From assembly GCA_009840595.1 (NCBI GenBank), contig VXNK01000002.1, positions 1 to 47,159 on the forward strand: 47,159 nt of DNA. The letters run 5' to 3'. Below the pieces are notes generated by a model. It was not told where the DNA came from. It was given only the letters and a program-made list of their open reading frames with translations, and did no database searches. This DNA is from Rhodospirillaceae bacterium. GTDB taxonomy: Bacteria > Pseudomonadota > Alphaproteobacteria > Bin65. This document shows, piece by piece, positions 7,357 through 46,957 of this stretch; position 1 is the stretch's first letter, and the number at the start of each line of letters is the position of its first letter. The translations under genes were made by a program, and so were the position numbers.

Positions 7357-7689
7357 CGCACCGTTGCGGACGCAGCCGGAATCAGGGCGAAAAAACTATT
7401 TGCGGCCAAAAAGTTAAGGGAGGTCCGGGCGGTATGCGCGGCGAAGCGAAACATGCGGTGTTTGCGTCTTGACCCTGCGGTTCCTATTGGCTAGGCAGAC
7501 CGGCGCGCATAAAAGAAGAACAATGCTGCGGCGTGCCAGGGAGGTTTGCACCGGCGGAACCGGCGGCGGGAGGCATCCTGCCACGCGCCGGCAGGTCTCA
7601 AATCTTGGTCGGGGACTGTGCGCGTTGCGCTCCGGTGAGCCGCGCGCTGCGGCGGCGCGGCTTGCCGAAGGGATCGAGTGGAGACGCCG
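7357..7689 (+). promoter_or_regulatory. Leader region of the ligase-Liv operon
   Basis: This 333-bp gap separates the MBL gene from the long ligase/transporter operon and has no supported gene. A sigma-70-like pair is visible: TTGACC at 7469-7474 and, 17 bp on, TAGGCA at 7492-7497. The second box is a poor match. A less GC-rich patch (AAAAAACTATTTGCGGCC) lies near 7390. I see no riboswitch or clear operator. The promoter call is tentative. Confidence 0.3.
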
Positions 7690-9645
7690 ATGACGGCAGA
7701 CACATTCCCGAAACTGCTGGACCGCAACGCTCGCGAGCGCGGGCCTCGGCCGGCGATTCGCGAAAAATATCTCGGCATCTGGCAGACCTTCTCCTGGAGC
7801 GAATCGCGCGCAGAAGTGGAGATCGTCGCCCACGGACTCGCCGCCCTGGGCCTCAAGCGCGGCGACCGGATCGCGATCATCGGCGACAACCGGCCCTATC
7901 TCTACTGGGCGATCGTGGCGGCGCAGGCGCTCGGCGCCGTTCCGGTACCGGTATACCAGGACAGCGGTGCGGGTGAATTGGCTTATGTGCTGGATCACGC
8001 GGAAGTCTCCTTCGCCGTGGCCGAGGACCAGGAGCAGGTCGACAAGCTGGTCGAGGCGATGGAAACGGTGCAGACGCTGAAGACGATCGTCTATTGCGAC
8101 CCGCGCGGCATGCGCGAATACGATCAGGCGTTTCTGCATTCGCTGGACGAGGTCAAGAAGGCCGGAGAGGCGCGCAAGGCGGTCAACCGCGATTTCTATG
8201 AGGCCGAGGTCGCCAAGGGCCAGGGCAGCGACATCGCGATATTCCTCTACACCTCCGGCACCACGGGCAACCCGAAGGGCGTCGTCCTCACCTTCGACAA
8301 CCTGATCTCGATGGCGGAAATGTCCGTCGAACTGGAACGGATCGGCGAGGACGAGGACACGCTGGCCTACCTGCCCATGGCCTGGGTCGGCGACTGCGTT
8401 TTCTCGATCGGCCAGTCCTATGTCGCCGGCTTCTGCGCCAACTGTCCGGAGAGCCAGGCCACCTTCCTGACCGACCTGAAGGAGATCGGGCCGACCTATT
8501 TCTTCGCGCCGCCGCGCATCTTCGAGAATATCCTGACCTCGGTGAACGTGCGGATGCAGGACGCCGGCCGGACCAAGCAGCGCCTGTTCCGCTATTTCAT
8601 GGATCACGCCGCCAAGGTCGGCGTGAAAATCCTGCAGAAGGAGAAGGTCGGCGCCTGGGCGCGCTTCAAATACTGGCTGGGCGAAATCCTGGTCTACGGG
8701 CCGCTCAAGAACACGCTGGGCATGAGCCGGGTGCGCCGGGTCTACACGGCCGGCGAGGCGATCGGGCCGGACATCTTCGACTTCTACCGGTCGATCGGGC
8801 TGAACATGAAGCAGCTCTACGGCCAGACCGAAGCCTCGGTGTTCGTCACCGTGCAGCCCGACAACGAGGTCTATGCCGATACCGTCGGCAAGGCCTGTCC
8901 GGGCGTCGAAGTCAAGGTCGATCCGGAGTCGCGCGAGGTGCTCTACCGCAGCGAAGGCGTGTTCAAGGAGTACTACAAGAACGAGGAAGAGACCCGGAAG
9001 ACCAAGACCGAGGACGGCTGGGTCCATACTGGGGACGCTGGCTTCATCGACAACAACGGCCATCTGAAGATCATCGACCGGGCCAAGGATGTCGGCGTGC
9101 TGAACAACGGCTCGATGTTCGCGCCGAAATATCTCGAGAACAAGCTGAAGTTCTTCCCCTTCATCCAGGAGGCCGTGACCTTCGGCGCCGGGCGCGACCA
9201 CGCCGCCGCCATGATCTCTATCGATATCGACGCGGTCGGCAACTGGGCGGAGCGCAACAACGTCGCCTATGCCAGCTACCGGGAGCTGGCGGCCAAGCCG
9301 GACGTTTACGAGGAAATCCGCAAGAATATCGAACAGGTCAACCGGGACTTGGCCGAAGATGCCGAACTGGCGGGCGCCCAGATCGCGCGCTTCACCCTGC
9401 TGCACAAGGAACTGGACGCCGACGACGGCGAGCTGACCCGGACCCGCAAGGTCCGCCGCCGGCACATCAACGAACGCTACGGTGCCGTGATCGAGGCCTT
9501 CTACGACGGGCGGGACGAGGTGCACTGCGAGGTCGAGACGATCTTCGAGGACGGCCGCAAGGGCGTCAGCGCCGCCGACCTCAGAATCATGGATGCAGCG
9601 ACCGCCGGAACCGCCGGCGCCGAGCCGCTGCGCCAGGCGGGCTGA
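7690..9645 (+). CDS. Long-chain-type acyl-CoA synthetase (AMP-binding)
   Basis: A 651-residue adenylate-forming ligase that makes an acyl-CoA from a carboxylic acid, ATP and CoA. Motifs: P-loop YTSGTTGNPKGV from Tyr187, LYGQTEASVFV, DGWVHTGDAGF, DRAKDVGVLNNG, and TRTRKVRR near the C-terminus, where the catalytic lysine is expected. Its length and the VYTAGEAIGPDIFDFYRSIG segment match the long-chain synthetase branch often found next to Liv-type transporters. ATG 7690 is preferred (GGAG 7 bp upstream); GTG 7678 in the same frame is an alternative. livG begins 6 bp after its stop, so the ligase and importer are almost certainly co-transcribed. Confidence 0.92.
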   Translation: MTADTFPKLLDRNARERGPRPAIREKYLGIWQTFSWSESRAEVEIVAHGLAALGLKRGDRIAIIGDNRPYLYWAIVAAQALGAVPVPVYQDSGAGELAYVLDHAEVSFAVAEDQEQVDKLVEAMETVQTLKTIVYCDPRGMREYDQAFLHSLDEVKKAGEARKAVNRDFYEAEVAKGQGSDIAIFLYTSGTTGNPKGVVLTFDNLISMAEMSVELERIGEDEDTLAYLPMAWVGDCVFSIGQSYVAGFCANCPESQATFLTDLKEIGPTYFFAPPRIFENILTSVNVRMQDAGRTKQRLFRYFMDHAAKVGVKILQKEKVGAWARFKYWLGEILVYGPLKNTLGMSRVRRVYTAGEAIGPDIFDFYRSIGLNMKQLYGQTEASVFVTVQPDNEVYADTVGKACPGVEVKVDPESREVLYRSEGVFKEYYKNEEETRKTKTEDGWVHTGDAGFIDNNGHLKIIDRAKDVGVLNNGSMFAPKYLENKLKFFPFIQEAVTFGAGRDHAAAMISIDIDAVGNWAERNNVAYASYRELAAKPDVYEEIRKNIEQVNRDLAEDAELAGAQIARFTLLHKELDADDGELTRTRKVRRRHINERYGAVIEAFYDGRDEVHCEVETIFEDGRKGVSAADLRIMDAATAGTAGAEPLRQAG

Positions 9646-9651
9646 TCGCCG

Positions 9652-10545
9652 ATGAAACACTCGGAACGCACATTCGGCGACACCCTTCTGAGGGTCGACA
9701 ACATCACGCTGCGTTTCGGCGGCGTGAAAGCCATCACCGACGTCAGCTTCGATATCCACGAACGGCAGATTTTCGCGATCATCGGGCCAAACGGCGCCGG
9801 CAAGACCTCGATGCTGAACGTGATCAACGGCTTCTACCACCCGCAGGAAGGCACCATCACCTACAAGGGCAACCAGCGGCACCAGATGAAGCCGCACGAG
9901 GCGGCCGAAACCGGGATCGCGCGGACGTTCCAGAACGTCGCCCTGTTCCGCGGCATGAGTACGCTGGACAATGTGATGACCGGCCGGCTGCTCAAGATGA
10001 GCGGCCCGGCGATGCGGTACTACCACCGGCAGTTCGCCGACATGCCGGTGATCAACTACCTGACCTATCCGGCCATGTGGTTCGGCGATTTCCTGCTCGA
10101 TTCCCTCTATTGGGGGCCGTATCAGAGGGAGGAACTGGCGCACCGCAAGGCTGCCGAGGAGGTGATCGACTTCCTCGAAATCCAGTCGATCCGGCGCACG
10201 CCGGTCGGCCGCCTGCCCTACGGCCTGCAGAAGCGGGTCGAACTGGGCCGCGCGCTCGCCATGGAGCCGGATCTGCTGCTGCTCGACGAACCGATGGCCG
10301 GCATGAACCTCGAAGAGAAAGAGGACATGTGCCGCTTCGTCATCGACGTGAACGACGAATTCGGCACCACCATTGCGCTGATCGAACACGATATGGGCGT
10401 GGTGATGGATATCTCGGATCATGTCGTCGTGCTGAACTACGGCCGCAAGATCGCCGAGGGCACGCCGGCGGAAGTCCAGGCCGACCAGGACGTGATCGAC
10501 GCCTATCTCGGCGTCGCGCACGAAGAGGACCTGATCGAGAAGTAG
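9652..10545 (+). CDS. livG: Branched-chain-type ABC importer, ATP-binding protein
   Basis: Cytoplasmic ATPase of a LivFGHMK-type importer, 297 residues. Walker A is GPNGAGKTS, the signature region is LPYGLQKRVELGRAL, and Walker B is LLLLDEPMAGMN. An insertion rich in Tyr and Trp (about residues 119-157) between Walker A and the signature makes it longer than the typical LivG of about 255 residues; such insertions occur in this subfamily. It lies between the acyl-CoA synthetase and livH. The imported compound need not be an amino acid: related systems take up aromatic acids and other carboxylates. Confidence 0.93.
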   Translation: MKHSERTFGDTLLRVDNITLRFGGVKAITDVSFDIHERQIFAIIGPNGAGKTSMLNVINGFYHPQEGTITYKGNQRHQMKPHEAAETGIARTFQNVALFRGMSTLDNVMTGRLLKMSGPAMRYYHRQFADMPVINYLTYPAMWFGDFLLDSLYWGPYQREELAHRKAAEEVIDFLEIQSIRRTPVGRLPYGLQKRVELGRALAMEPDLLLLDEPMAGMNLEEKEDMCRFVIDVNDEFGTTIALIEHDMGVVMDISDHVVVLNYGRKIAEGTPAEVQADQDVIDAYLGVAHEEDLIEK

Positions 10546-10653
10546 GAACGGGACAAACGGCGCGCGCGGGCCCGGCCGGGCCCGGCATTGCGATGGCGCC
10601 GGCAGACCGCAGCGGGCGGACCGGATCCCGGGCGCCCGTTTGAGGGGGAAAGT

Positions 10654-11586
10654 ATGGGAGAGATCTGGGAATTCATCCTGGCGCCGGTGCTCATCTTCGA
10701 GAGCTGGCAGTTCGGCATGGAGGTCGTGATCAGCGGCCTGCTGGCGGGGGTGATGTACTCGCTCGTCGCGCTCGGCTTCGTACTGATCTACAAGGCCTCG
10801 GGCATGTTCAACTTCGCCCAGGGCGTGCTCGTCCTGTTCGCGGCCCTCAACCTCGCCGGCTTTATCGGCCTCGGCATTCCGATCCCGCTCGCCATCCTGC
10901 TCACGATCGGGATCATGATCCTGTTCGCCGTGGTGGTGGAGTATCTGATCCTGCGCCATCTGGTGAACCAGGAGCAGATCATCCTGTTCATGGCGACGAT
11001 CGGGCTCGCCTTTTTCCTCTCGGCCTTCGGCGAGACCATCTGGGGCTCCGACGTCAAGAAGCTGGATGTCGGCATTCCGCAGGGCCGCTTCGAGCCCTTC
11101 GGCATCCAGATCCAGTATCTCGAACTCACCGCCGGCGCCGTCGCCGCGGCGCTGGTGACCGGCCTCGCGATCTTCTTCAACAAGACCAAGATCGGCCGGG
11201 CGCTGCGCGCGGTGGCCGACGACCATCAGGCCGCGCTTTCGGTCGGCATCAACCTGCGCACCATCTGGATCATCGTCTGGGCGGTTTCCGGCATCGTGGC
11301 GCTGGTCGCCGGCACCATGTGGGGCGCCAAGTCCGGCGTTCAGTTCAGTCTCTCGGAAATCGCCCTGAAAGCCCTGCCGGTGTTGATCCTGGGCGGCTTC
11401 GAATCGATCCCCGGCGCCATTATCGGCGGCTTGATCATCGGACTGGGCGAGAAGCTGGCCGAGGTCGGCTGGGGGCCGTATGTCGGCGGTGCGATCGAGG
11501 ACTGGTTCGCCTATATCCTGGCGATGGTCTTCCTGGTGTTCCGCCCGCAGGGCCTGTTCGGCGAAAAGATCATCGAAAGAGTCTGA
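10654..11586 (+). CDS. livH: Branched-chain-type ABC importer, permease LivH
   Basis: Inner-membrane permease of 310 residues with about eight hydrophobic helices. Family landmarks are GLLAGVMYSLVALGFVLIYKASGMFNFAQG near the N-terminus and the ATPase-contacting loop IGRALRAVADDHQAALSVGI. The ATG at 10654 has GAGGGGGA about 5 bp upstream. The 108-bp gap to livG is GC-rich and holds a GCCCGG repeat, with no gene. The product pairs with LivM to form the pore. Confidence 0.94.
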   Translation: MGEIWEFILAPVLIFESWQFGMEVVISGLLAGVMYSLVALGFVLIYKASGMFNFAQGVLVLFAALNLAGFIGLGIPIPLAILLTIGIMILFAVVVEYLILRHLVNQEQIILFMATIGLAFFLSAFGETIWGSDVKKLDVGIPQGRFEPFGIQIQYLELTAGAVAAALVTGLAIFFNKTKIGRALRAVADDHQAALSVGINLRTIWIIVWAVSGIVALVAGTMWGAKSGVQFSLSEIALKALPVLILGGFESIPGAIIGGLIIGLGEKLAEVGWGPYVGGAIEDWFAYILAMVFLVFRPQGLFGEKIIERV

Positions 11587-11590
11587 CGCC

Positions 11591-12823
11591 ATGTTCTATC
11601 GCGAAGCCGGGCAGTTCTATACGAGTTACGCCAAGGACCAGGGCATCTTCCAGCTCAAGCAGGACAAGTTTGGCCTGTGGGGCATCCTGTTCATCGCCTT
11701 CGTCGTCGTTCCGGTCGGCCTGTATCTCATGGTGCAGGGCGGCCTCATGGCCGCGTCGACCAAGGACTATCTGTACAACTCGATCTTCCTGCTCCTGCTG
11801 GTCAACAGCATGGCCGCGCTCGGCCTGAATATCCTGACCGGCTATTGCGGCCAGATTTCCCTCGGGACGGCGGCGTTCATGGGGGTCGGCGCTTTTACCG
11901 CCTACAAGTTCTCGACCGGCCTGAACTACCGGATCCAGAAGGAGGACGAGGCCGGCGAGCTGATTTCGCAGCTCGTGCCGATGCTGCCGCCGATCGACAA
12001 TCCGATCCTCCTGGTTCTGATCGCCGGTCTAGTGACGGCGGTCGTCGGTGTGATCTTCGGCCTGCCCAGCCTGCGCATCAAGGGTTTCTACCTGGCGGTC
12101 GCGACCCTGGCGGCGCAGTTCTTCCTGGTCTGGTGCTTCTCCCGCGTCGAATGGCTGTACGACTATGTCTCGTCGTCGACGATCCAGATTCCGCCGCTGA
12201 AGCTGTTCGGCCTCGTCGTCACCGGATCGGAAACGGTCATGCGCGACGGCCAGGAGGTAACGATCTATCCCGCTGCGGAGACGAAATACCTGATCTGCCT
12301 GTCGCTCGTGGTGTTCTTCGCCTTCGTCGCCAAGAACATGGTGCGCGGCCGGATCGGCCGGGCCTGGATGGCGATCCGCGACATGGATATCGCGGCCCAG
12401 CTCATCGGCATCCGGCCGCTGGCGACCAAGCTGCTCGCCTTCGCGGTCAGTTCCTTCTTCTGCGGCATGGCCGGGGCGATGTCGCTGATCTTCTACCTCG
12501 GCGCGCTCGAAGGCGCGGAAGCCTTCAACATCAACGAGTCCTTCGCCGTCCTGTTCATGGTCATCATCGGCGGGCTGGGCAGCATCACCGGCTCCTTCCT
12601 CGGCGCCGCCTTCATCACGCTGATCCCGATCTTCCTGGTCGTGTCCCTGCCCTGGCTGGGCGGCCAGTTCGGCATCCCGGTCGATGCGGCAATGGTCGAG
12701 CATATCCAGTTCATGATCTTCGGCGCGCTGATCATCATCTTCCTGATCATGGAGCCGCTCGGGCTGGCCCGCCTGTGGCAGATCGGCAAGGAAAGACTGA
12801 GACAATGGCCGTTCCCCTACTAG
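11591..12823 (+). CDS. livM: Branched-chain-type ABC importer, permease LivM
   Basis: Second membrane subunit, 410 residues. After a 30-residue polar N-terminal extension come LNILTGYCGQISLGTAAFMGVGAF, LPSLRIKGFYLAVATLAAQF and the coupling loop IGRAWMAIRDMDIAAQLIGI, all typical of LivM. It starts 4 bp after the livH stop. The extra soluble segment near residues 200-235 (ETVMRDGQEVTIYPAAETK) probably faces the periplasm. Confidence 0.94.
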   Translation: MFYREAGQFYTSYAKDQGIFQLKQDKFGLWGILFIAFVVVPVGLYLMVQGGLMAASTKDYLYNSIFLLLLVNSMAALGLNILTGYCGQISLGTAAFMGVGAFTAYKFSTGLNYRIQKEDEAGELISQLVPMLPPIDNPILLVLIAGLVTAVVGVIFGLPSLRIKGFYLAVATLAAQFFLVWCFSRVEWLYDYVSSSTIQIPPLKLFGLVVTGSETVMRDGQEVTIYPAAETKYLICLSLVVFFAFVAKNMVRGRIGRAWMAIRDMDIAAQLIGIRPLATKLLAFAVSSFFCGMAGAMSLIFYLGALEGAEAFNINESFAVLFMVIIGGLGSITGSFLGAAFITLIPIFLVVSLPWLGGQFGIPVDAAMVEHIQFMIFGALIIIFLIMEPLGLARLWQIGKERLRQWPFPY

Positions 12824-36152: not shown

Positions 36153-37868
36153 CTACCGGACTACCGCTCCATCGTCGCCGATTTCGACACCGTAGCGGTG
36201 GCGCGCCGCTTCGGCGCTGACATAGCCCTCGGCGATATCCGCCGCAACGGCCTCGACCGGCCGGTCGTGCGGATCGCCATGGCCGCCGCCGCCGGGCAGG
36301 TCGACCCGCACCCGGTCGCCAGCGCCGACGATCTGCCTGCCCTTGGGCCGCAGCGGGCTGCCGCCGGCGGTCGCGACCGCGCCCGCCGCCCCGTCGGCGC
36401 CGCCGTTTCGCCCCCTGGCCGGGTTTTCGACCCGGTCGTACATGGCGAACAGGGCGAAGGGCGCGCCGTCGCGCGTGCCCATTTCGACCGTCTGGCCGAG
36501 CCCGCCGCGGTATTTCCCCGCGCCGCCGGAATCGGGGCGCAGCTCCTTGCGCCACACCACGACCGGCGCCCGGGTCTCGATCGCCTCGACCGGCAGGGCC
36601 CGCACACCGCTCGGGAAGGCGGTGGCGGACAGGCCGTCGACTGCGGGGCGGGCGCCGGAGCCGCCGCTGTTGAACGACAGCAGGTCGAAAGCCGCGGCGT
36701 CGCTGTCGCGGTTCATGCCCGGCGCGGCGCCGATCTCCGGCCCGCCGCGCACCTGGATGCCCCAAAGGCAGGCCGCGCCTTCTGCGGGCACTTCGAGGCC
36801 GGGCACTTTCGCCAGGCAGCCGAGCACGACATCCGGCAGGAACTGGCCGATGATGTGGCGCGCGCTGACCGGCCGCGGCTTCTCGACATTGAGGATCGAG
36901 CCGAGCGGCGCCCTGACCTCGACCGGGGCCAGCGAACCGGCGTTGTTGGGGATTTCCGGCGCCACTGCCGCACGGACGCCGAACGCTGTGTAGGCCAGGG
37001 TGTAGTTCATCACCAGGTTGACGCCGTAGGCGCTGGCCGGCGAACTGCCGTCGAAGTCGATGACGATGCGTTCGCCGTCGATCGTCAGCGCGGCGTCCAG
37101 AATGACCGGCCGGTCGATGCCGTCCAGCGTCAACGTATTGCGGTAGGTGCCATCGGGCAGGGCGCGGATCGCGTCCTGCATGGCGTCCCGCGAGCGCTCG
37201 AGGATGAAGTCGGCCAGCGCGTCGAAGCGGACGTCGCCGTACTCGTCGAGCATCGCGGCAAGCCGGCGTTCCCCCAGTTGGTTGCAGGTGGCGTAGCTGC
37301 GGATGTCGCCTTCCACCGGGTCCGGCTGGCGGACGTTGGCGCGGACGATCTCGAACAGGTCCTCGTTGAACACGCCTTCGCGCGCCAGCCGCATGATCGG
37401 GATGAACAGGCCTTCTTCGTAGATCGAACGGCCGTCCGGGCACTGGCCCAGCCCGCCGATATCGACCTGGTGGCAGGTGCAGGCGAACAGGGCGACCAAC
37501 TCGTTCCGGTGGAACGCCGGCGAGACGACCGTGATGTCGTGCAGATGGCCGGAACTGAGCCACGGATCGTTGGTGATGAAATGGTCGCCCGGCTTCATGC
37601 CGGCGGCCGGGAACTTCTCCAGGAAATAGCCGACCGCCGCGGCCATCGAGTTGACATGGCCGGGCGTGCCGGTCACCGCTTGGGCGACCATGCGCCCGCG
37701 CGTGTCGAACACCCCGGCGGAAAGGTCGCCGGCTTCGCTCACCGTCTCGCTGAACGCCGTCTTGATCAGGCTGCGCGCCTGCTCCTCGACGATGGCGGTC
37801 AGGCGGTTCCACAGCACCGGATAGCGGATGCGGGTCAGTCTGTCGCTGGCCGGCATTTCGGTCATCAT
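36153..37868 (-). CDS. hyuB: Hydantoinase B / oxoprolinase-type beta subunit
   Basis: A 571-residue HyuB-type subunit. Typical segments are LWNRLTAIVEEQARSLIKTAFSETV, DTRGRMVAQAVTGTPGHV, ITNDPWLSSGHLHDITVVSP, CHQVDIGGLG and GRGKYRGG-like AGKYRGGLGQTVEM, ending in LPGGGGHGDP. With HyuA it forms an ATP-dependent hydrolase opening hydantoin-, lactam- or 5-oxoproline-type rings. Some members are carboxylases instead. Its ATG overlaps the hyuA stop by 4 bp (ATGA). The substrate is not certain. Confidence 0.92.
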   Translation of the reverse strand: MMTEMPASDRLTRIRYPVLWNRLTAIVEEQARSLIKTAFSETVSEAGDLSAGVFDTRGRMVAQAVTGTPGHVNSMAAAVGYFLEKFPAAGMKPGDHFITNDPWLSSGHLHDITVVSPAFHRNELVALFACTCHQVDIGGLGQCPDGRSIYEEGLFIPIMRLAREGVFNEDLFEIVRANVRQPDPVEGDIRSYATCNQLGERRLAAMLDEYGDVRFDALADFILERSRDAMQDAIRALPDGTYRNTLTLDGIDRPVILDAALTIDGERIVIDFDGSSPASAYGVNLVMNYTLAYTAFGVRAAVAPEIPNNAGSLAPVEVRAPLGSILNVEKPRPVSARHIIGQFLPDVVLGCLAKVPGLEVPAEGAACLWGIQVRGGPEIGAAPGMNRDSDAAAFDLLSFNSGGSGARPAVDGLSATAFPSGVRALPVEAIETRAPVVVWRKELRPDSGGAGKYRGGLGQTVEMGTRDGAPFALFAMYDRVENPARGRNGGADGAAGAVATAGGSPLRPKGRQIVGAGDRVRVDLPGGGGHGDPHDRPVEAVAADIAEGYVSAEAARHRYGVEIGDDGAVVR

Positions 37869-40003
37869 TGTTCCTCCGCCGTGCGCTCCAGAGTCAGGGA
37901 GCCGAACGGATCGCAGGACAGGGTATATCCCGGCGGGACAATGGTCGAGGTCTGGGCTTCGACAATCACCGCCGGCCCGGCGACGGTCTGCCCGGAGTGC
38001 AGCCGGTCGCGGTCGAACACCGCGGCTGCCAATGGCGTGCCGGCGGACGTATCGACAATCCTTCGCGCCGCGATCTCGGGCGACGCCGGTTCCTCGGGGT
38101 CTTCGAGCGGCCGGGTTGTGTCCTGCGCACGGCATTCCGCCCGGACGGTCCAGGCGACGAATTCCAGCGGCACACCGTCAATCGGCGGGCCGTATTGCCG
38201 GCGGTAGGCTGCCGCATAGGCATCCGCCACCGCTTCCGACCACGGATTGCGGTCGCGCGAGTCGGGCGGCGCATCGGGCAGAGGCACCATGATCTCGTGA
38301 CTCTGGCCGCGATAGCGCATGAAAGCGGCGTAGGAGACTCGCTCCGGCGCCCGGCCGGCGGCGGTCTCGACGAAGGATGCGGCTTCGTCGCGCATGTCCG
38401 CCAGCAGCGCCGCGACGGCGGTGCCGTCCAGCGATTCGAGCTGTTGATACAGGCTGCGCGCGACCTCGAACGCCACCGGCGCGCGCAGGAATCCGATCGC
38501 CGAGCCGACCCCGGCGCCGCGCGGCACGACGATCCGGTCGATGCCCAGCTTGTCGGCGACCCGGGCGGCGTGCAGCGGGGCGCAGCCGCCGAACGCGATC
38601 AGAGTCCGCCCGTCGAAATCCTTGCCGTGCTCGACCGCGTGTTCGCGCGCCGCGTTGGCCATGTTCTCGTCGACCATTTCGGCGACACCGAGGGCTGCCG
38701 TCGCGGTGTCGAGATCGAGCGGTGCGCCGACATCGGCGCCGAGCGTGCGTTCGGCCGCCGCCGGGTCCAGCCTCATCGCGCCGCCGGCGAAACCGGCCGG
38801 ATCGATCCGGCCGAGCACGACGTCGGCGTCGGTCACGGTCGCGCCGGTCCCGCCGCGGGCGTAGCAGGCCGGGCCGGGATCGGACCCGGCGCTGCGCGGG
38901 CCGACCGCGATCCGGCCGAGCCCGTCGACGCTGCACAGGGAGCCGCCGCCCGCGCCGATCTCGACCATCTCGACCACCGGAATGCGCAGGGGCAGGCCGC
39001 TGCCGCGCTTGAAGCGGTAGGCCCGGTCGACCTCGAAATCCCGCGCCGACTGGGGCCGGCCGTCGTCGATCAGGCAGATTTTGGCGGTCGTGCCGCCCAT
39101 GTCGAACGAGACCGCCTTGGCAGCGCCGGTCTGCCGGGCGACGGCGGCGGCATAGATCGCACCGCCGGCCGGGCCGGATTCGATGAGCCGGACCGGGAAC
39201 CGGATCGCCGTATCGACGGTCCCGAGGCCGCCGTTCGACAGCATGACCATCAGCGCGCCGGCGAACCCGTCGTCGGCGAGCGCCTGCTTCAGCCGGCCCA
39301 GATAGGCGGCGACCGCAGGCTGGACGTAGGCGTTGGCAACAGTGGTCGAGAAGCGCTGATATTCGCGCATTTCCGGCGAGACTTCGCAGGACAGGCTGAC
39401 CGGGAGCTCCGGATGCGCCGCCAGAATGAGTTCGCGCAGGCGCCGCTCGTGCGCCGGGTTGGCGTAGCTGTGCAGCAGGCCGATCGCGACGCTCTCGATC
39501 CCTTCGGCGGCGATGGCGTCCAGCACCGGCCCGACCGACGCCTCGTCGAGCGGGATCAGGGCCGCGCCGTTGACGTCGATCCGCTCGCGCACCGTCAGCC
39601 GGCGGGCGCGGCGCACCAGCGGCTGCGGTTTGACGATGTTCAGGTCGTATTGCTCGAAACGGCTCTCCGAGCCCATTTCGAGCACGTCGCGGAAGCCTTC
39701 GGTGGTGACGAACAGGGTCTCCGCGCCGCGCCGTTCGATTACAGCGTTGGTCGCCAGCGTGGTGCCGTGGATGATCCGGCCGATCTCCGCCAGCCCGATC
39801 CCGGCCGCCTTGCAGGCCGCCGCGACGCCGTCGAGCACCGCGCGCGCCGGTTCGGCGCCGGTGGTCAGCAGCTTGGCGGAATGGAAGCGGCCGTCACCAT
39901 GTTCCAGGGCGATATCGGTGAAGGTGCCGCCGATATCGACACCCATGCGCCATCCGCCCGGATCCGCCGCGCCGCCGCCGCCTTGGCCGCTGTCCTTTTG
40001 CAT
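37865..40003 (-). CDS. hyuA: Hydantoinase A / oxoprolinase-type alpha subunit
   Basis: A 712-residue ATP-binding partner of HyuB. The N-terminal actin-like fold is shown by MGVDIGGTFTDIAL and IIHGTTLATNAVIERRG, and a second phosphate loop by SFDMGGTTAKICL. GAGGGSLCSVD, AGSDPGPACYARGG and AFGGCAPLHA are further family marks. ATG 40003 is chosen because it leaves 74 bp for a promoter between it and the divergent ubiD gene; ATG 40045 would leave only 32 bp. It is transcribed together with hyuB and may open a lactam using ATP. The neighbours (UbiD, D-glutamate-cyclase-like) suggest 5-oxoproline or a cyclic amide. Confidence 0.92.
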   Translation of the reverse strand: MQKDSGQGGGGAADPGGWRMGVDIGGTFTDIALEHGDGRFHSAKLLTTGAEPARAVLDGVAAACKAAGIGLAEIGRIIHGTTLATNAVIERRGAETLFVTTEGFRDVLEMGSESRFEQYDLNIVKPQPLVRRARRLTVRERIDVNGAALIPLDEASVGPVLDAIAAEGIESVAIGLLHSYANPAHERRLRELILAAHPELPVSLSCEVSPEMREYQRFSTTVANAYVQPAVAAYLGRLKQALADDGFAGALMVMLSNGGLGTVDTAIRFPVRLIESGPAGGAIYAAAVARQTGAAKAVSFDMGGTTAKICLIDDGRPQSARDFEVDRAYRFKRGSGLPLRIPVVEMVEIGAGGGSLCSVDGLGRIAVGPRSAGSDPGPACYARGGTGATVTDADVVLGRIDPAGFAGGAMRLDPAAAERTLGADVGAPLDLDTATAALGVAEMVDENMANAAREHAVEHGKDFDGRTLIAFGGCAPLHAARVADKLGIDRIVVPRGAGVGSAIGFLRAPVAFEVARSLYQQLESLDGTAVAALLADMRDEAASFVETAAGRAPERVSYAAFMRYRGQSHEIMVPLPDAPPDSRDRNPWSEAVADAYAAAYRRQYGPPIDGVPLEFVAWTVRAECRAQDTTRPLEDPEEPASPEIAARRIVDTSAGTPLAAAVFDRDRLHSGQTVAGPAVIVEAQTSTIVPPGYTLSCDPFGSLTLERTAEEQ

Positions 40004-40077
40004 GACGCGCTCATACTCCGTATGGAGAAGGGACGGAACCGTCATGGTGTACCGGTACCGGCACGGAGGATTGCGCC
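40004..40077. promoter_or_regulatory. Divergent promoter region hyuA/ubiD
   Basis: The 74-bp divergent gap holds a perfect 10-bp palindrome GTACCGGTAC at 40049-40058, which could be an operator shared by both directions. CGGAGGA at 40064-40070 is the ubiD ribosome binding site. No clear -35/-10 pair is seen. Confidence 0.35.
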
Positions 40078-41391
40078 ATGCGCGCCTATCTGGACAGTCT
40101 GCGAGCCGCCGGCGACCTGCATGTCGTCCAGCGTGAAATCGATCCGAAGCACGAACTGGCGGCGGTGACGGCGGCATTCCAGACGCGCCATGACGGCGCC
40201 ATCCTGTTCGAGAATGTGCGCGGCGCGCCGATGCCCGTCGTCAGCAACGTCTATGGCGGGCGGCGGCGGCTGTGCGCCCTGATCGGCGCGCCGGACCTTG
40301 CCTTCTGCCCGGCCTGGGGCCGGCTGGTGGCGCGCGCGCCGGAGCGTGCGGAGTTGCAGGAAGCGTCCGCCGGCCGCCGCCGGATCGCACTCTCCGAGCT
40401 GCCCCACGTCACCTATTTCGAGAAAGACGCCGGCCCCTACATCACCGCGGGCATCCTGCTCGCGCACCATCCGGACACCGGGGTGCCGAACCTGTCCTTC
40501 CACCGCGCCATGCATGTGAGCGACGGCGAACTGCGCATCCGGATCGGCAGCAGCCACGACCTGACGCGCTATCAACGGGCGGCGGAAGCGAAGGGCGAGG
40601 CGCTGGAAGCGGCGATGCTGCTCGGCGCGGCGCCGGAAATCTTCCTGGCCGCCTGCGCCTCCATCCCGCCCGACGCCGACGAGCTGGCGGTCGCCAATGC
40701 CGTAGCCGGCGGGCCGCTTGCGATGACGCCCTGCGAAACCGTCGGCCTGTCGGTTCCGGCCGATACCCAGATCGTCATCGAGGGGCGTATCCTGCCCCAT
40801 GAGCGCCGGCCGGAGGGGCCGTTCGGCGAGTTCATGGGCTACTACGTTCCCGAGGAGGACAACCATGTCTTCGAGGTCACGGCGGTCACGGCCTGCGCCG
40901 ACCCGGTCTACCACGCCCTGGTGTGCGGCTCGCCGGAAGACCTGATCCCGCTCGAAACCGCCATCGCCTCGAAAATCTACCGGCATCTGACCGCAACGCT
41001 GCCCGGCATCGTCGACGTGTCCTGCAATCCGCAGTTGCTCAATACGGTGGTGAAGATAGACAAGCAGTATGAGGGCCACGCCCGGCAGGTGCTCATGGCG
41101 GCTTTCGGCGCCCATATGGACTACAGCAAGACCTGCATGGTGACCGACGAGGATGTCGACATCCACGACCTGAACGACGTCTGGTGGGCCTTCGTCACCC
41201 GGGGCCGGGCCGATACCCGCAGTCTCGTGGTCCCCGATGTGCCGGGCTTCTACCGCGATCCCCACAAGGACCATTGGGGCCGCCTCGGCATCGACGCCAC
41301 GAAACCCTGGGGCCGCGAGGCCGAGTTCGAGCGCAAGCGGATTCCCGGCGGCGATGCGGTCGATCTGGCCGAATGGCTGAACCGGACGTAG
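40078..41391 (+). CDS. UbiD-family prenylated-FMN decarboxylase
   Basis: A 437-residue UbiD-type enzyme, which reversibly decarboxylates aromatic, heteroaromatic or unsaturated acids with prenylated FMN. The family core is present: AILFENVRGAPMPVVSNVYGG, the glutamate pair in RPEGPFGEFMGYY (Glu246, Glu251) that forms part of the catalytic E-R-E network, and DVDIHDLNDVWWAFVTR. Its length is below that of UbiD itself (about 490), fitting the catabolic branch. The partner flavin prenyltransferase UbiX is not in the window. A gene with DUF1445 follows 7 bp later, so the two are an operon. Confidence 0.9.
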   Translation: MRAYLDSLRAAGDLHVVQREIDPKHELAAVTAAFQTRHDGAILFENVRGAPMPVVSNVYGGRRRLCALIGAPDLAFCPAWGRLVARAPERAELQEASAGRRRIALSELPHVTYFEKDAGPYITAGILLAHHPDTGVPNLSFHRAMHVSDGELRIRIGSSHDLTRYQRAAEAKGEALEAAMLLGAAPEIFLAACASIPPDADELAVANAVAGGPLAMTPCETVGLSVPADTQIVIEGRILPHERRPEGPFGEFMGYYVPEEDNHVFEVTAVTACADPVYHALVCGSPEDLIPLETAIASKIYRHLTATLPGIVDVSCNPQLLNTVVKIDKQYEGHARQVLMAAFGAHMDYSKTCMVTDEDVDIHDLNDVWWAFVTRGRADTRSLVVPDVPGFYRDPHKDHWGRLGIDATKPWGREAEFERKRIPGGDAVDLAEWLNRT

Positions 41392-41398
41392 ACGGGAA

Positions 41399-42220
41399 AT
41401 GACCGCTCCCGCCGATCTATCGCCTGCGGCGCTGCGCGCGTTGGCCCGCCGCGGCGATTGGACCGGGTCGACCGCCGGCGCCTCGCGCGGCTGGCTGCAA
41501 TGCAACCTTGCGATATTGCCGGAGGCATACGCCGGAGATTTCGAGGCGTGGTGCCGGGCCAACCCGCGGGTGTGCCCGCTGGTCGCCGTCGGTAAGCCGG
41601 GCGATCCCCGACTGCCCGCACTGGGATCGGATATCGACCTGCGCACCGATTTGCCCGGCTACAGCATTTTCCGGCACGGCGAGCCGGCCGGCCACGCCGC
41701 TTCGGTCGGCGAACTGTGGCGCGACGATTTCGTGGCCTTCACCTTCGGCTGCTCCTTTTCCTTCGAGGATGTGCTGATCCGGGAAGGCGTCGATCTGCGC
41801 TATCTGGCGCGCGGCGAGCGCGAGGCGATCTACCGCTCAACCCTGGAGAGCATTCCGGCGGGCGGCTTCGCCGGGCCGCTCATCGTGTCGATGCGGCCGC
41901 TCCAGCCGGCCGATGCGATCCGTGCGATCGAGGTGACGGCGCGCTATCCGCTGGCCCATGGTTCGCCGGTCCATATCGGCAAACCGGCGGCAATCGGCGT
42001 GGATCCGGACCGGCCGATGGAAACGCTCGGCCGGGTCAGCGTGCAGGACGACGAACTTCCCGTTTTCTGGGCCTGCGGCGTAACTCCGCAACTCGCCATC
42101 CGGCAGGCTGCACCGGACCTCTGCATCACGCACCGTTCGGCCCATATGCTGGTGACCGATATTCCGATGGCGACCTTGCGCGACCGGTCGGTAGCAGAGG
42201 GGTCGCCGCCCTTGAATTAG
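41399..42220 (+). CDS. DUF1445 / D-glutamate-cyclase-like putative hydro-lyase
   Basis: A 273-residue protein of the DUF1445 family. The N-terminal LQCNLAILPEAYAGDFEAWCRANPRVCPLVAV, FTFGCSFSFEDVLIREG, SMRPLQPADAIRAIEVTARYP and CGVTPQLAIRQAAPDLCITH are all hallmarks. A eukaryotic relative converts D-glutamate to 5-oxo-D-proline; bacterial members are usually called putative hydro-lyases. The divergent hyuAB pair is of 5-oxoprolinase type, so the two units could act on the same compound. Its TAG overlaps the TAA of the convergent amine oxidase in TTAG (42217-42220). Confidence 0.9.
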   Translation: MTAPADLSPAALRALARRGDWTGSTAGASRGWLQCNLAILPEAYAGDFEAWCRANPRVCPLVAVGKPGDPRLPALGSDIDLRTDLPGYSIFRHGEPAGHAASVGELWRDDFVAFTFGCSFSFEDVLIREGVDLRYLARGEREAIYRSTLESIPAGGFAGPLIVSMRPLQPADAIRAIEVTARYPLAHGSPVHIGKPAAIGVDPDRPMETLGRVSVQDDELPVFWACGVTPQLAIRQAAPDLCITHRSAHMLVTDIPMATLRDRSVAEGSPPLN

Positions 42221-44145
42221 GCCCCCGGCGGCACGTCCAGCGTCGGGTTGCGGTCGAAGAAGCCGTCGGCCTCGAGACGGAAGCCGGTGCGGGCGACCGG
42301 CTGGACCGGCCAGTCCTCGAGCCGCGGCAGGTGCAGCAGGCCGAAGCTGTGCCACAGCACGATATCGGTGTCGCGGATCGAGCGGCCCTGCTTCACCCAG
42401 GCCGCGATGGTCTCCGAGCCGTCGCTCTGGTTGACGAAGCGGCCGGCCGGGTAGCGCTCGGCGGGGTCGTAGGGCGTGCACCAGACATGGTTGAAGATGA
42501 AGGCGGCGCGCTTTTCCATCATCGTCCCGGCGTGGAACCAGGGCCGCAGCATGCCGCTGGAATGCAGGCGGTAGGCGGTCGGCCGGCCCAGCCCGTTGGT
42601 CGCCGCGGCGCTTTCGACGCGCCAGAAGCGCTCGGTATCGGCGTTGCGCGTCCGGCCGCCCTCGGTCTCCAGCACGGTCGGCTCGACGCGGAAGGCGTTG
42701 CCGTTCGGGTTGCCGTCGCCCATCGGCGGCTGCACGACATTCATCTCGACCAGCCGGTTGGCGTCGCCGTCCACTGCCATGTCGAGCCGGGCGCAGAACA
42801 GGTGCTGGTGGTTGGGCGCGGTCACGCCGGGCATGATCTCGGTGCCGTAGCCGGTGCCGGAGATCGCGTTCAGGCCCTGAGTGTTCATGATCCCGGTCGC
42901 CTTGATATCCAGCTCCAGCGTCCCGTCCATGTGGAAGACCCAGTAGAAGCCGTATTCGTAGTTGCCGACCGTCGCGATCATCGAAACCAGCAGCCGGCGC
43001 GCCCGGCGGTGCTCCATCTCGTCGGTCATGTAGTCGGTATGCTTCCACAGCATGCCGTCGTCTTCCTCGTGCATGCAGATGGCGTTGTCGACCACCACCG
43101 GCTCGCCCGAGGTCAGGTTGAACACGCCGTCGAAGTAATGGATGTTGCCGCGGCAGTCGCAGCCCAGCTTGAGCGGGTTAGCGACCTGGCCGAGTCCGTA
43201 TTCGCCGACGTCGAAGGCGTTCTTGCGGTAGTGATTGAAGGACGGGTCGCCGTAGGGCACGACCATTTCCGCGATCGAGGCGCGCCAGATCAGCGGCCGC
43301 CACGGCGCCTTCTCGCCGCCGCGCACCTGGATGTCGTTGAGCACCAGCCCTTCGCGGGGATGGAACTCGACGTGAAAGCGCCAGTTGGCCCAGGTGACGA
43401 CCCGGTCCTCGACGGTGAAGGTCGGTCCGTCGGGCTGGGCGATATCGATCGGCTTCAGGTCGCTGCGCAGGATCTCCGCGATCTCGGGCCGGTCGGCATG
43501 GTAGTTCGAGGAGGCCATCGGCACGTCGTGAACGGCGTGGTCGATGACCCGGACGACTTCGACTTTGTTGAGGTCGAACAGCACGTTCAGGCCCTCGACC
43601 GGATGGGCGTAGCCGTTGTCTCCCGGATCCTTGCGCAGATAGACCAGGCAGTGGACGAGCCGGCGGCCCTCCTCGTCCTCGAAGCCGAAATTGCCGGCGG
43701 AGAAGGGATCGACCTGGATGTGCGACAGGTCGGTGACGCCGCGCCGTTCCATCGCCGCGATGAAATCGGGATGCTGGGGCACCGTTTCGGCGCACACCAT
43801 GAACTCGTCGACATTGATCGCCGCGCGCGCGCCGGGCGCGCCGACGGCCGACTCCACCGCTTCCCCGGCCAGATCGACGATCAGCTCGGAGACGCTGTTG
43901 TCCGCCGTGTCGTAGATGCTGACATAGGCCTTGCGGCTGTCGCCCGCCTTGCCCGAAGCGATCTCGGCCCGACATTGCGCCTTGTCCGGATAGTGCAGCC
44001 GGATCGATTCGAATTTCGCGGTCTCCGTCCACCCGTCCCAGCCCCGGACGATGGCGCCGGCGGCCTCGATCTCGGCCGGCGTCAGCGCGTTGAGCGGATG
44101 GGTCCCGCGCTCGGTCGCGGGGGTGGTGGTGCTGGTGTTCGCCAT
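42217..44145 (-). CDS. Copper amine oxidase (topaquinone)
   Basis: Oxidises a primary amine to aldehyde, ammonia and H2O2. 642 residues. The tyrosine that self-processes to topaquinone is Tyr396 in VGNYEYGFYW. The catalytic base Asp312 lies in FDVGEYGLG. Copper-binding His-x-His is in APNHQHLFCARLDM, and a late His is in HSFGLLHLPRLEDWPV. There is no signal peptide: the start MANTSTTTPATERG fits cytoplasmic bacterial enzymes. ATG 44145 is preceded by GGGGAAAG. The gene is divergent from the MaoC gene and convergent with the DUF1445 gene. Confidence 0.95.
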   Translation of the reverse strand: MANTSTTTPATERGTHPLNALTPAEIEAAGAIVRGWDGWTETAKFESIRLHYPDKAQCRAEIASGKAGDSRKAYVSIYDTADNSVSELIVDLAGEAVESAVGAPGARAAINVDEFMVCAETVPQHPDFIAAMERRGVTDLSHIQVDPFSAGNFGFEDEEGRRLVHCLVYLRKDPGDNGYAHPVEGLNVLFDLNKVEVVRVIDHAVHDVPMASSNYHADRPEIAEILRSDLKPIDIAQPDGPTFTVEDRVVTWANWRFHVEFHPREGLVLNDIQVRGGEKAPWRPLIWRASIAEMVVPYGDPSFNHYRKNAFDVGEYGLGQVANPLKLGCDCRGNIHYFDGVFNLTSGEPVVVDNAICMHEEDDGMLWKHTDYMTDEMEHRRARRLLVSMIATVGNYEYGFYWVFHMDGTLELDIKATGIMNTQGLNAISGTGYGTEIMPGVTAPNHQHLFCARLDMAVDGDANRLVEMNVVQPPMGDGNPNGNAFRVEPTVLETEGGRTRNADTERFWRVESAAATNGLGRPTAYRLHSSGMLRPWFHAGTMMEKRAAFIFNHVWCTPYDPAERYPAGRFVNQSDGSETIAAWVKQGRSIRDTDIVLWHSFGLLHLPRLEDWPVQPVARTGFRLEADGFFDRNPTLDVPPGA

Positions 44146-44177
44146 CGGTCTTTCCCCATGGGTGTTTTTCTTGCCAA

Positions 44178-44193
44178 GCGGGCCTGCGCCCGC
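44178..44193. other. Hairpin in the amine oxidase / MaoC divergent region
   Basis: GCGGGC-CTGC-GCCCGC, a 6-bp stem with a 4-base loop, lies in the 102-bp gap between the two divergent genes. It would be in the 5' leader of either transcript. Its role is unknown. Confidence 0.35.
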
Positions 44194-44247
44194 CATTGAT
44201 CGTCCGTTTTCCGTCCCCGTTTCTGTCACAGCACCGCCCGGAACGCC

Positions 44248-44724
44248 ATGCCCATAGAAACCACCGCCGTGATGCCGCACACCCATTTCGAGGACTTCGA
44301 GGTCGGGCAGGAAATGGAGTACGGCCGGGCGATCGTGACCGCCGAAGAGATTATCCGCTTCGGCCGCGAGTTCGATCCCGAACCCTTCCATATTGGCGAG
44401 GAAGAGGCCAAGGAGACGATGTTCGGCGGCCTGATCGCCAGCGGCATCCACATGGCCGCCATGCTGCGGCGCATGCAGGCCGACGGCTTCGCCAACGTTC
44501 CGTCCCAGGGCTCGCCGGGCTGGGACGAGCTGCATTTCCTGGCCCCGACCCGGCCGGGCGACGTGCTGCATGTCCGGACCAGCATTCTGGAGACGCGTGT
44601 CTCGCAGAGCCGCCCGGCGCTCGGCATCGTGAAAATGCGCCACCTGGTCATCGACGAGCAGGGCGAGGTCAAGACCAGCGTCCTGACCACCGCCTTCTAC
44701 GACCGGCGCGCGGCGGAGATTTGA
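44248..44724 (+). CDS. MaoC-family (R)-specific dehydratase/hydratase
   Basis: A 158-residue single-hotdog protein with HTHFEDFEVGQEMEYGRAIVTAEEIIRFGREFDPEPFHI, carrying the Asp and His of the hydratase 2 motif (DPEPFHIGEEEAKETMFGGLIASGIH), and LAPTRPGDVLHVRT. It hydrates or dehydrates an acyl-CoA. The substrate is not known. It is divergent from the copper amine oxidase. Confidence 0.92.
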   Translation: MPIETTAVMPHTHFEDFEVGQEMEYGRAIVTAEEIIRFGREFDPEPFHIGEEEAKETMFGGLIASGIHMAAMLRRMQADGFANVPSQGSPGWDELHFLAPTRPGDVLHVRTSILETRVSQSRPALGIVKMRHLVIDEQGEVKTSVLTTAFYDRRAAEI

Positions 44725-44843: not shown

Positions 44844-45143
44844 ATGCCGGAGTTGTACACAGTCGATGTCTTCCTCGACAAAGAGGCCGGCGTTTTCGTC
44901 GGGACGAGCGCCGACATACCGGGTCTGACCGTCGAGGCGGAAACTCGCGGCGGCCTTATCGAGGCCCTGTTCGAGACCGTGCCGCCCCTCCTGGAAGACA
45001 ACCTCGGGCTGCCGCAGGATGCGGAAGTCGAAGTCAAGGTGCGGGTCGTCGAGGCAGCGCCTCCTTCGCGGCAACCGGCGGCCGGTTCGCTCAGCCAGCC
45101 GCGCTATGTCGTCGAAAATGTGAGGGCGCCGGCCTACGCCTAG
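44844..45143 (+). CDS. HicB-like antitoxin (DUF1902)
   Basis: A 99-residue protein whose first 70 residues match the HicB/DUF1902 fold: ELYTVDVFLDKEAGVFVGTSADIPGLTVEAET. It has no recognisable DNA-binding tail, as is usual for DUF1902 versions, so autoregulation may differ from classical HicB. It stands 13 bp before the toxin, in the order antitoxin then toxin, the reverse of E. coli hicAB. GAAGGGAGCG precedes the ATG. Confidence 0.82.
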   Translation: MPELYTVDVFLDKEAGVFVGTSADIPGLTVEAETRGGLIEALFETVPPLLEDNLGLPQDAEVEVKVRVVEAAPPSRQPAAGSLSQPRYVVENVRAPAYA

Positions 45144-45156
45144 CGGGAGAGCCGGC

Positions 45157-45357
45157 GTGGCGACCTACGAACGGGAAGTCAAACGCCTCTTGGTGGAGGC
45201 CGGCTGGGGGAGGGTCCGCCAAAGCGCCGGCAGCCACGAACAATGGCAACATCCGGGAGATCGTTCTCCCAAAACGATCACCGTTCCCAGCAAGATAAAG
45301 AGCCGGCACACCGCCAACAACATTCTGAAAAGCGCCGGACTCCAGAAAGCCTTCTAA
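45157..45357 (+). CDS. hicA: HicA-type mRNA interferase toxin
   Basis: A 66-residue HicA/YcfA toxin with the double-stranded-RNA-binding-like fold: VKRLLVEAGWGRVRQSAGSHEQWQHP, with the catalytic histidine expected in GSHEQWQH, then TVPSKIKSRHTANNILKSAGL. It starts at GTG 45157 with GGGAGAG about 6 bp upstream. Together with the upstream antitoxin-like gene it is a complete small toxin-antitoxin module. Confidence 0.85.
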   Translation: MATYEREVKRLLVEAGWGRVRQSAGSHEQWQHPGDRSPKTITVPSKIKSRHTANNILKSAGLQKAF

Positions 45358-45505
45358 CTTCGCGAACCGGTCGGGTTATCTCCGGCGTGGCACGCAAGCA
45401 CTCACCCGACCCGGTCGCATGGCGTTGACGCTGCCGGCGCGGTTGCGTGCGTGCCGGGCGGGTGCGAACATCGCCCGGCGACGAATCGAGGGGACGGCGA
45501 CGCCG

Positions 45506-46957
45506 ATGCTGCGCTCGGGCGAGGCATATCTCGAAGGCATCCGCGACGGGCGGGCGGTCTATATCGGCAAGGAGCGGGTGGCCGACGTCACCGACCATCC
45601 GGCCTTCGCCAACGCGGCGCGGATGTACGCCGCGATGTACGACCTCAAGCGCGCCGACGACATGCGCGACGTGCTCTGGGTCGAGGACGGCGGCGCGCGC
45701 ATCCCGGCGTATTTCCTCAAACCCCGCGACCGCCGCGACCTCGAGATCCGCACCGCCGCGCACCGCGCCATCGCCGCCTTCTCGCACGGCCTGCTCGGCC
45801 GCTCGCCGGACCATGTCGCCTCCTCGATCACCGGGCTCGCCATCGGATCGTCCGTGTTCGACCGCGACGGCGGCGGGTTTTCCGAACGCATCGAGGCCTA
45901 TTACGAGCACGCGCGGTCGCGCGATCTCTACCTCGCCTACGCCATCCTGCCGCCGCAGGGCGCACGCAAGCCCGAACTCTACCAGAGCGCCGACCGCAGC
46001 CCGCCGACTCTCCGGGTGACGGCGGAGGACAGCGAAGGGGTCGTCCTCAACGGGATGAAGATGCTGGCGACCGGCGCGGTGTTCGCCGACGAGCTGTGGA
46101 TCGGCAACATCATCCCGCTGGCGCCGAGCCAGGTGAAGGAATCGGTGACCTGCGCGGTGCCGGTGAACGCGCCGGGCGTTGCGCTGTGGGCGCGCAAGCC
46201 GTTCGGCGCGGCGCAGGGGATCGAGTTCCACAATCCGCTGTCCCACCGCTTCGACGAATCGGACTCCATGATCGTGTTCAAGGACGTGCACATTCCCTGG
46301 GAGCGCGTCTTCGTCCACGACAACCCGGCGCTCTCGCGCGACATCTATGTCGAGACGCCGGCCCACTACATGTCGAACCACCAGTCGAACGTGCGCTTCG
46401 CGGCCAAGCTCCGGCTGCTGATCGGGCTCGCGTCGAAGATCGCCCGGTCGAACGGGGCGCGCGACATCCCGGCGGTGCGCGAGGTGCTGGCCGATCTCGC
46501 TTCGATGGAGGCGGCCTACGGCGGCATCGTCGACGGCCAGCTCCAGGCCTGCGAGCCGACCGGCAACGGCTATGTCCACGTCAACCGGCGCTACATGTAT
46601 GCGGGCATCAACTACGCGGTCGAAAATTACGGCAAAATCTGCGACCGGGTCCGCACGCTGATGGGCGGCGGCGTGTTCCAGATGCCGGCCAGCATCGACG
46701 TGGCCGACGACCCGGCGCTCGGCCCGGTCTTCGAGGACTACTGGTCGACGGCGGACGAATCTGCGACCGAGCGCATGAAGCTGTTCCACCTCGCCTGGGA
46801 CCTGCTGGGCTCGGAATTCGCCATGCGCCACGACCAGTACGAGAAATTCTACGTCGGCCCGCGCTTCATCGTCCGCGACTACAATTTCCGCCACGTCCCC
46901 TGGGACGACTATGAGGGCCTGGTCGACGACATCATGGCGGGTTACGGCACGCGGTGA
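45506..46957 (+). CDS. HpaB-family FADH2-dependent monooxygenase
   Basis: A 483-residue member of the 4-hydroxyphenylacetate 3-hydroxylase family, which uses reduced FAD from a separate reductase to hydroxylate phenolic or other substrates. Marks: MLRSGEAYLEGIRDGRAVYIGKE at the start, DLYLAYAILPPQG, GVVLNGMKMLATGAVFADELWIG, ESDSMIVFKDVHIPWERVF, and LMGGGVFQMPAS near the C-terminal half. ATG 45506 is preferred over ATG 45419 because family members start at MLR and GAGGGGA is upstream. The flavin reductase is not in view. The substrate is unknown. Confidence 0.9.
   Translation: MLRSGEAYLEGIRDGRAVYIGKERVADVTDHPAFANAARMYAAMYDLKRADDMRDVLWVEDGGARIPAYFLKPRDRRDLEIRTAAHRAIAAFSHGLLGRSPDHVASSITGLAIGSSVFDRDGGGFSERIEAYYEHARSRDLYLAYAILPPQGARKPELYQSADRSPPTLRVTAEDSEGVVLNGMKMLATGAVFADELWIGNIIPLAPSQVKESVTCAVPVNAPGVALWARKPFGAAQGIEFHNPLSHRFDESDSMIVFKDVHIPWERVFVHDNPALSRDIYVETPAHYMSNHQSNVRFAAKLRLLIGLASKIARSNGARDIPAVREVLADLASMEAAYGGIVDGQLQACEPTGNGYVHVNRRYMYAGINYAVENYGKICDRVRTLMGGGVFQMPASIDVADDPALGPVFEDYWSTADESATERMKLFHLAWDLLGSEFAMRHDQYEKFYVGPRFIVRDYNFRHVPWDDYEGLVDDIMAGYGTR

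Follow-up and report, generated by a model that had tools for sequence, protein, structure and literature searches.

Pairing of hydantoinase-type hyuAB with ubiD in a Rhodospirillaceae locus and its putative role in N-heterocycle or lactam breakdown

A stretch of 47,159 nucleotides from a Rhodospirillaceae bacterium (contig VXNK01000002.1, source genome G000; the whole stretch is called the window) carries genes for a hydantoinase-type enzyme (HyuAB), a UbiD decarboxylase, a DUF1445 protein, a copper amine oxidase (CuAO) and a MaoC hydratase side by side. A preliminary description treated positions 36153-44724 as one catabolic cluster for lactams or N-heterocycles. The question raised by this locus is which of the genes really belong together, and what compound they might break down.

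Layout of the locus

The features considered are listed below.

36153..37868, minus strand: hyuB, hydantoinase B subunit, ~572 aa (PF02538, 3.4e-146)
37865..40003, minus strand: hyuA, hydantoinase A (ATP) subunit, ~712 aa (PF01968, PF05378, PF19278; alternative upstream start possible at 40045)
40009..40027, plus strand: conserved 19-base site GCTCATACTCCGTATGGAG between hyuA and ubiD, kept in relatives
40078..41391, plus strand: ubiD, prFMN-type decarboxylase, 437 aa (PF01977, PF20695, PF20696; TIGR00148 above cut-off)
41399..42220, plus strand: DUF1445 / D-glutamate cyclase family gene, 273 aa (PF07286, 8.7e-46)
42217..44145, minus strand: CuAO, ~643 aa (PF01179, 6e-149; NF008559 above cut-off)
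44248..44724, plus strand: MaoC-type hydratase, 158 aa (PF01575, 1.1e-12)
44844..45143, plus strand: DUF1902, HicB-like antitoxin (PF08972, 3.3e-12)
45157..45357, plus strand: HicA-type toxin (PF07927, 7e-12)
45419..46957, plus strand: HpaB-type flavin monooxygenase, oxygenase component (PF11794, 4.7e-71; PF03241, 1.6e-43; start may be 45506)

All the families named in the preliminary description are present, each far above its Pfam cut-off (Hydantoinase_B 3e-146, Hydantoinase_A 2e-82, UbiD 6e-59, D-Glu_cyclase/DUF1445 9e-46, Cu_amine_oxid 6e-149 and MaoC 1e-12), and the HpaB monooxygenase is an extra gene just beyond the span that it covered. The genes hyuA and hyuB run leftward, with the hyuA stop overlapping the hyuB start. 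Divergent from them at about 75 bp from hyuA, ubiD runs rightward and is followed after 7 bp by the DUF1445 gene. CuAO is convergent with DUF1445, their stops overlapping by 4 bp, and is divergent from MaoC across a gap of about 100 bp; both MaoC and HpaB run rightward. Purifying selection was found on all seven genes (dN/dS 0.06-0.23 against the relatives carrying them). No gene for an aldehyde dehydrogenase (ALDH), UbiX or a flavin reductase was found within the window's cluster. Elsewhere in the window, a 1392-aa open frame with no Pfam match at 1e-10 (7414-11592, minus strand) lies in a lower-GC stretch.

Conservation and neighbours of the hyuAB-ubiD pair

In the family scan, UbiD was detected at E 1e-40 in 11/11 genomes, and a close UbiD (62-100% identity) is present in nine of the family genomes, G000-G008. 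In eight of these nine, ubiD and a divergent hyuA stand no more than 1.2 kb apart. The exception is G005, where hyuAB is found on another contig beside XDH-type genes (L133, L033) and a 5' remnant of hyuA with the 19-base site still stands upstream of ubiD. In G003 a 1.1 kb stretch splits hyuA from ubiD, and the 19-base site remains with ubiD. Relatives of the window UbiD at 79-95% identity come from metagenome genomes labelled Rhodospirillaceae, Alphaproteobacteria or Defluviicoccus. One of them bears the name of the sponge Spongia in its title, and our guess is that other isolate codes among these relatives also denote sponges.

The site GCTCATACTCCGTATGGAG has inverted halves, and with up to 3 mismatches allowed the genome contains no second copy. 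It is kept in the window and its relatives, including G003 and G005 where hyuA has moved, and is probably a promoter or operator of ubiD; the hyuA start at 40045, if used, would place it within the hyuA reading frame. Comparison of 12-mers gave no convincing operator shared between the hyuA-ubiD and CuAO-MaoC promoters. Since the 19-base site is found at hyuA/ubiD only, joint control of hyuAB-ubiD with CuAO, MaoC and HpaB is unsupported.

A scan of genome contigs for UbiD relatives yielded 29 loci, several of them from family genomes already counted. Among them, HyuAB lies near UbiD in L044 (G008), L045 (Anaerolineales, Chloroflexota), L050 and L061, and a more distant HyuAB occurs in L058. 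HyuAB is also near the same UbiD clade in L084 and L085; the pair recurs in distant Alpha- and Gammaproteobacteria and in one Chloroflexota genome. According to the class scan, the clade of the window UbiD is present in 13/385 genomes. Two of these genomes (G202 and G294) carry ubiD, hyuA and hyuB all in the same direction, and the stretches fetched from the other six clade-bearing genomes outside the genus showed no HyuAB.

Trees made by a quick method were used to follow the linkage. In the UbiD tree (36 rows), the link to HyuAB is accounted for by 7 changes, at least 4 of which are forced by well supported branches. In the HyuA tree (40 rows), the linkage label takes 4 changes compared with 9.7 in shuffles, and none of 500 shuffles was as low. 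Split UbiD genes entered the trees in part: the first part for L061, which has a frame break, and the second part for L193 (Paracoccus versutus). One in-frame stop was seen near the end of the UbiD match of L060 (G004). The ubiD-linked HyuA proteins stand apart from 23 of the 25 HyuA proteins of the class scan, and these 23 group with L175 and L176. A single unlinked HyuA (L105/G070), from an XDH-type locus with no UbiD in 20 kb, falls within the linked group. Both the UbiD-tree changes and the HyuA-tree grouping support hyuAB-ubiD as a travelling module, and hyuAB and ubiD probably form a functional pair.

The idea that all close HyuA homologues sit in a hyuAB-ubiD unit was dropped: such a homologue occurs at E 1e-150 in 92/385 class genomes, and UbiD was absent from all 25 flanks scanned (at most 1.5 kb on each side). 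The group of G000 is rich in HyuAB: there are ten HyuB matches in its 4.1 Mb genome and 8-14 in each of the six genomes checked.

Neighbours were tabulated for 41 loci of the UbiD clade, the window excluded; the loci are 3.3 to 21.3 kb long, seven rows belong to one close group, and genomes under two locus ids (e.g. L031 and L039) were entered once. HyuA occurs in 13 loci and UbiX in 10, with no locus having both. An amine or amino-acid oxidase accompanies 10 of the 13 HyuA loci and 9 of the 10 UbiX loci, against 1/18 of the others and 1/20 random regions, a contrast with the random regions that is biased because the oxidase queries were taken from the UbiD loci themselves; ALDH and the other neighbour queries were drawn from the loci likewise. 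In the 20 random regions, from genomes of the same scans (285,003 bases), DAO, XDH and TPP were each matched once, and HyuA, MAO, CuAO, ALDH and UbiX not at all. DAO is a common family: each genome has 41-49 matches, of which many are short. Seventeen UbiD loci are without HyuA, UbiX or amine oxidase, and in L050, where HyuAB and UbiD are present, no amine oxidase was found in the locus. XDH-type genes share the locus in L038, L040, L041, L060, L045 and L058.

A plasmid search for the UbiD clade returned 28 records, some from cultured hosts. The Sinorhizobium meliloti and Paracoccus loci comprise an ABC transporter, a TPP enzyme, ALDH, a HutC-type regulator, UbiD, UbiX, a racemase family member, and DAO with partner genes. 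Those of Caballeronia and Paraburkholderia comprise ALDH, an AraC regulator, UbiD, UbiX, a flavin amine oxidase relative, a TPP enzyme and a racemase family member. Sets of MAO, ALDH, UbiD and UbiX are found in Shinella, Paracoccus versutus, Caballeronia and Paraburkholderia. For the S. meliloti pSymA locus, searched under what we took to be its locus tags, the accessible portions of the literature name no inducer, and one paper gives three locus tags only as lowered transcripts.

The preliminary description had made its cluster depend on a neighbourhood conserved in relatives. What is conserved and recurrent is the hyuAB-ubiD core, whereas DUF1445 is missing beside ubiD in most relatives, as are CuAO and HpaB in G004 of the same genus. 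The true unit is smaller than the cluster first proposed. DUF1445 adjoins ubiD in G000, G001 and L042, a 63-residue fragment of it remains in G006, and it is absent beside ubiD in G002, G003, G004, G005 and G008 (G007 was left out of this count, its contig ending too early); in L050 it follows hyuB. DUF1445 is optional to the unit.

Genes beyond the pair were followed in the same way. MaoC is present in 7/7 genus genomes and CuAO in 6/7, G004 lacking it. HpaB follows MaoC in five genus genomes and lies at the end of another contig in G006; the sole HpaB match in G004 is a 49% paralogue. The whole CuAO-MaoC-HpaB block stands beside hyuAB-ubiD in four genomes (G000-G003), CuAO and MaoC do so in G006 up to the contig end, and G008 has hyuAB-ubiD without the block within 20 kb. 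The block was observed in a single genus and is separately losable. HpaB relatives were also found near HyuAB, without UbiD, in L175, L176 and L183. In L175 and L176 the HpaB relative adjoins a TPP enzyme; XDH flanks them on one side, and HyuAB stands about 6 kb off on the other. L175 additionally holds a MarR regulator, an AstE-type deacylase and an M28 peptidase.

Features of the enzymes

The catalytic residues of HyuAB and UbiD, judged by alignment, are intact. In HyuB, the metal residues D, H, D and H align with CapB 41/99/102/124 (alignment to 6yra_B), and HyuA carries the ATP motifs DIGGTFTD, DMGGT and GSDPGP; the CapB metal site and the HyuA-type ATP motifs are those given in the available part of PMC8453981. 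Among proteins with a solved structure, the one that matches HyuA best carries the label N-methylhydantoinase. N-methylhydantoinase and caprolactamase CapAB are both similar to the window enzyme in the two-gene AB order, the subunit sizes, the ATP motifs and the D-H-D-H metal site. Unlike CapAB, the window HyuAB is paired with UbiD and scores far under the caprolactamase NCBIfam equivalog models (446.6 and 204.5 bits versus a cut-off of 1000). In the accessible text of PMC5214803, the hydantoinase branch is told apart from the carboxylases by gene order and subunit count. By this standard, the window hyuAB, with two genes in the order AB, a B subunit of ~572 aa and no gamma subunit gene, fits the hydantoinase branch and not the carboxylases.

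The window UbiD has three UbiD domains and the catalytic residues R143, E246 and E251, which are invariant in 31/31 alignment rows. Its best solved relatives are an HmfF-like enzyme (PDB 6h6v), matched at full length with the catalytic R-E-E kept, and then the indole-3-carboxylate decarboxylase 7p9q. It differs from the furan-2,5-dicarboxylate decarboxylase HmfF at H296 and R304, which we take to bind the second carboxylate: at the aligned positions the window enzyme has D288 and I296, and D288 is invariant across the clade. For prFMN supply, the source genome has two PF02441 genes, of which one (G000:C105:21786-22298) lies directly before the other UbiD copy and is the probable UbiX.

The CuAO scores 801.3 against the NCBIfam cut-off of 651 and contains NYEY, an instance of N-Y-D/E-Y, the cofactor motif of copper amine oxidases. 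Its nearest solved chains are phenylethylamine oxidases. HpaB resembles 4-hydroxyphenylacetate 3-hydroxylase in having both Pfam domains at full length, but scores below two HpaB equivalog models (261.5 versus 480.2, and 172.5 versus 885.2). It has R-H-Y where the Thermus enzyme has R100-Y104-H142, which we take to be functional residues. The Y104 and H142 positions look exchanged, and the same H and Y are found in 9/11 relatives (exceptions L128 and L183). This HpaB departs from the classical phenol hydroxylases. Flavin reductase domains (PF01613) number three elsewhere in the genome and zero in the window.

Proposed route, alternatives and insertions

The reading we prefer, with a probability of roughly 0.4, is that hyuAB-ubiD serves the breakdown of a putative N-heterocycle or lactam substrate fed by amine or amino-acid oxidation. 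The steps would run as follows, in an order that we infer. CuAO, or a flavin amine oxidase or DAO-family enzyme in relatives, would oxidise an amine or amino acid, giving an aldehyde or oxo compound. Aldehyde oxidation, for which relatives have ALDH or an XDH-type molybdenum enzyme and the window has neither, would give an unsaturated or heteroaromatic acid, and UbiD, with prFMN from the genome's UbiX, would decarboxylate it. A hydroxylase (HpaB here; an FMO or XDH-type enzyme elsewhere) would then yield a hydroxy-heteroarene. Because the tautomer of such a compound is a lactam, the bond type that HyuAB opens, HyuAB could act after the hydroxylase, opening the lactam with ATP. DUF1445 and MaoC would be optional helpers. 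CuAO, MaoC and HpaB may act in this route as well, or may form a separately regulated neighbouring block. In this form the general route of the preliminary description stands as the best reading, and its 5-oxoproline branch finds no support; HpaB and the recurring oxidase, ALDH and molybdenum hydroxylase neighbours had been absent from it.

In the Aromatoleum indoleacetate route, the lactam is made by a molybdenum enzyme, and XDH-type enzymes are likewise found in several relatives' HyuAB/UbiD loci. A hydantoinase-type gamma-lactamase there opens the lactam on an N-heterocycle, according to the portion of PMC5214803 available. Unlike that route, the window centres on UbiD and has no CoA ligase/mutase set beside hyuAB-ubiD. 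Pyrrole-2-carboxylate is a possible substrate. Its decarboxylase HudA is of the UbiD family (PMC7976604, in the part accessible) but sits in another branch than the window UbiD, and pyrrole-2-carboxylate monooxygenase (EC 1.14.13.130) is placed in the same flavin-monooxygenase group as HpaB in the available text of PMC6165268.

Among the alternatives, it is a distinct possibility that two independent neighbours are present, hyuAB-ubiD with an optional DUF1445 acting on one compound and CuAO-MaoC-HpaB acting on an aromatic amine, for example a tyramine- or phenethylamine-like one. G004 keeps hyuAB-ubiD and MaoC without CuAO and HpaB there, G008 has the pair and no block nearby, the 19-base site is private to hyuA-ubiD, and CuAO, nearest to phenylethylamine oxidases, has the lowest dN/dS of the seven genes (0.06-0.08). 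Against such a division, some oxidase recurs beside this UbiD clade, and the block adjoins the pair in full in G000-G003 and as CuAO-MaoC in G006. That hyuAB and ubiD act on different compounds, their adjacency reflecting chance or a habit of catabolic islands, is improbable. These genomes are indeed HyuAB-rich and many UbiD relatives are without HyuAB; however, the pairing is found in divergent or same-operon form in several lineages, the linked HyuA proteins cluster in their tree and at least four changes are forced on the UbiD tree. With 10 hyuB in 4.1 Mb, one would be expected to fall within 3 kb by chance about 1.5% of the time.

The specific route of the preliminary description, in which DUF1445 makes 5-oxoproline and HyuAB opens it, is now very doubtful. 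The position of DUF1445 immediately past ubiD in the window and after hyuB in L050 would suit it. However, most family genomes have no DUF1445 beside ubiD, so that the gene is dispensable, the best solved HyuA match is labelled N-methylhydantoinase, and UbiD would be left without a role; moreover, DUF1445 falls just below the cut-off of its nearest NCBIfam model, PRK05463 (315 versus 324), whose name is 'putative hydro-lyase'. Least probable of all is that HyuAB is a ketone carboxylase of the acetone or acetophenone type instead of a lactam hydrolase. Such carboxylases belong to the same protein family, with Apc subunit matches far under their cut-offs, but the AB gene order, the ~572 aa B subunit and the absent gamma subunit gene are marks of the hydantoinase branch in what is available of PMC5214803.

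HyuAB and UbiD genes are abundant and for the most part unassigned, and their conserved pairing ties both functions and narrows the search for a substrate. No description of a joint UbiD-hydantoinase (HyuAB-UbiD) cluster was found in the literature searched, a limited set lacking most subscription journals. All the parts are known families; the arrangement of HyuAB with UbiD is new. It is a speculative and rather unlikely extension that this inter-phylum module is the heart of an undescribed route which decarboxylates an amine-derived N-heteroaromatic acid and, once the ring is hydroxylated, opens it in its lactam form at the expense of ATP, and that sponge-associated bacteria may use pyrrole-type or other heteroaromatics of the host in this way. 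The UbiD clade also occurs in cultured strains (Sinorhizobium meliloti, Paracoccus denitrificans and Shinella lacus), which makes the pairing testable; their loci have UbiX/ALDH partners, not HyuAB.

The locus has also received inserts. In the window, the DUF1902-HicA toxin-antitoxin pair (44844-45357) lies between MaoC and HpaB. The pair is an insertion, since in L038 the alignments of MaoC and HpaB end 24 bp from each other, compared with about 700 in the window. Between hyuA and ubiD of G003 (L039 8901-10000) there are a TacA1-like antitoxin frame and a second frame, without a Pfam match at 1e-8, that by eye resembles a GNAT acetyltransferase. Together with the DUF1902-HicA pair, the TacA1-like frame gives two different toxin-antitoxin-like inserts at the same locus in one genus.
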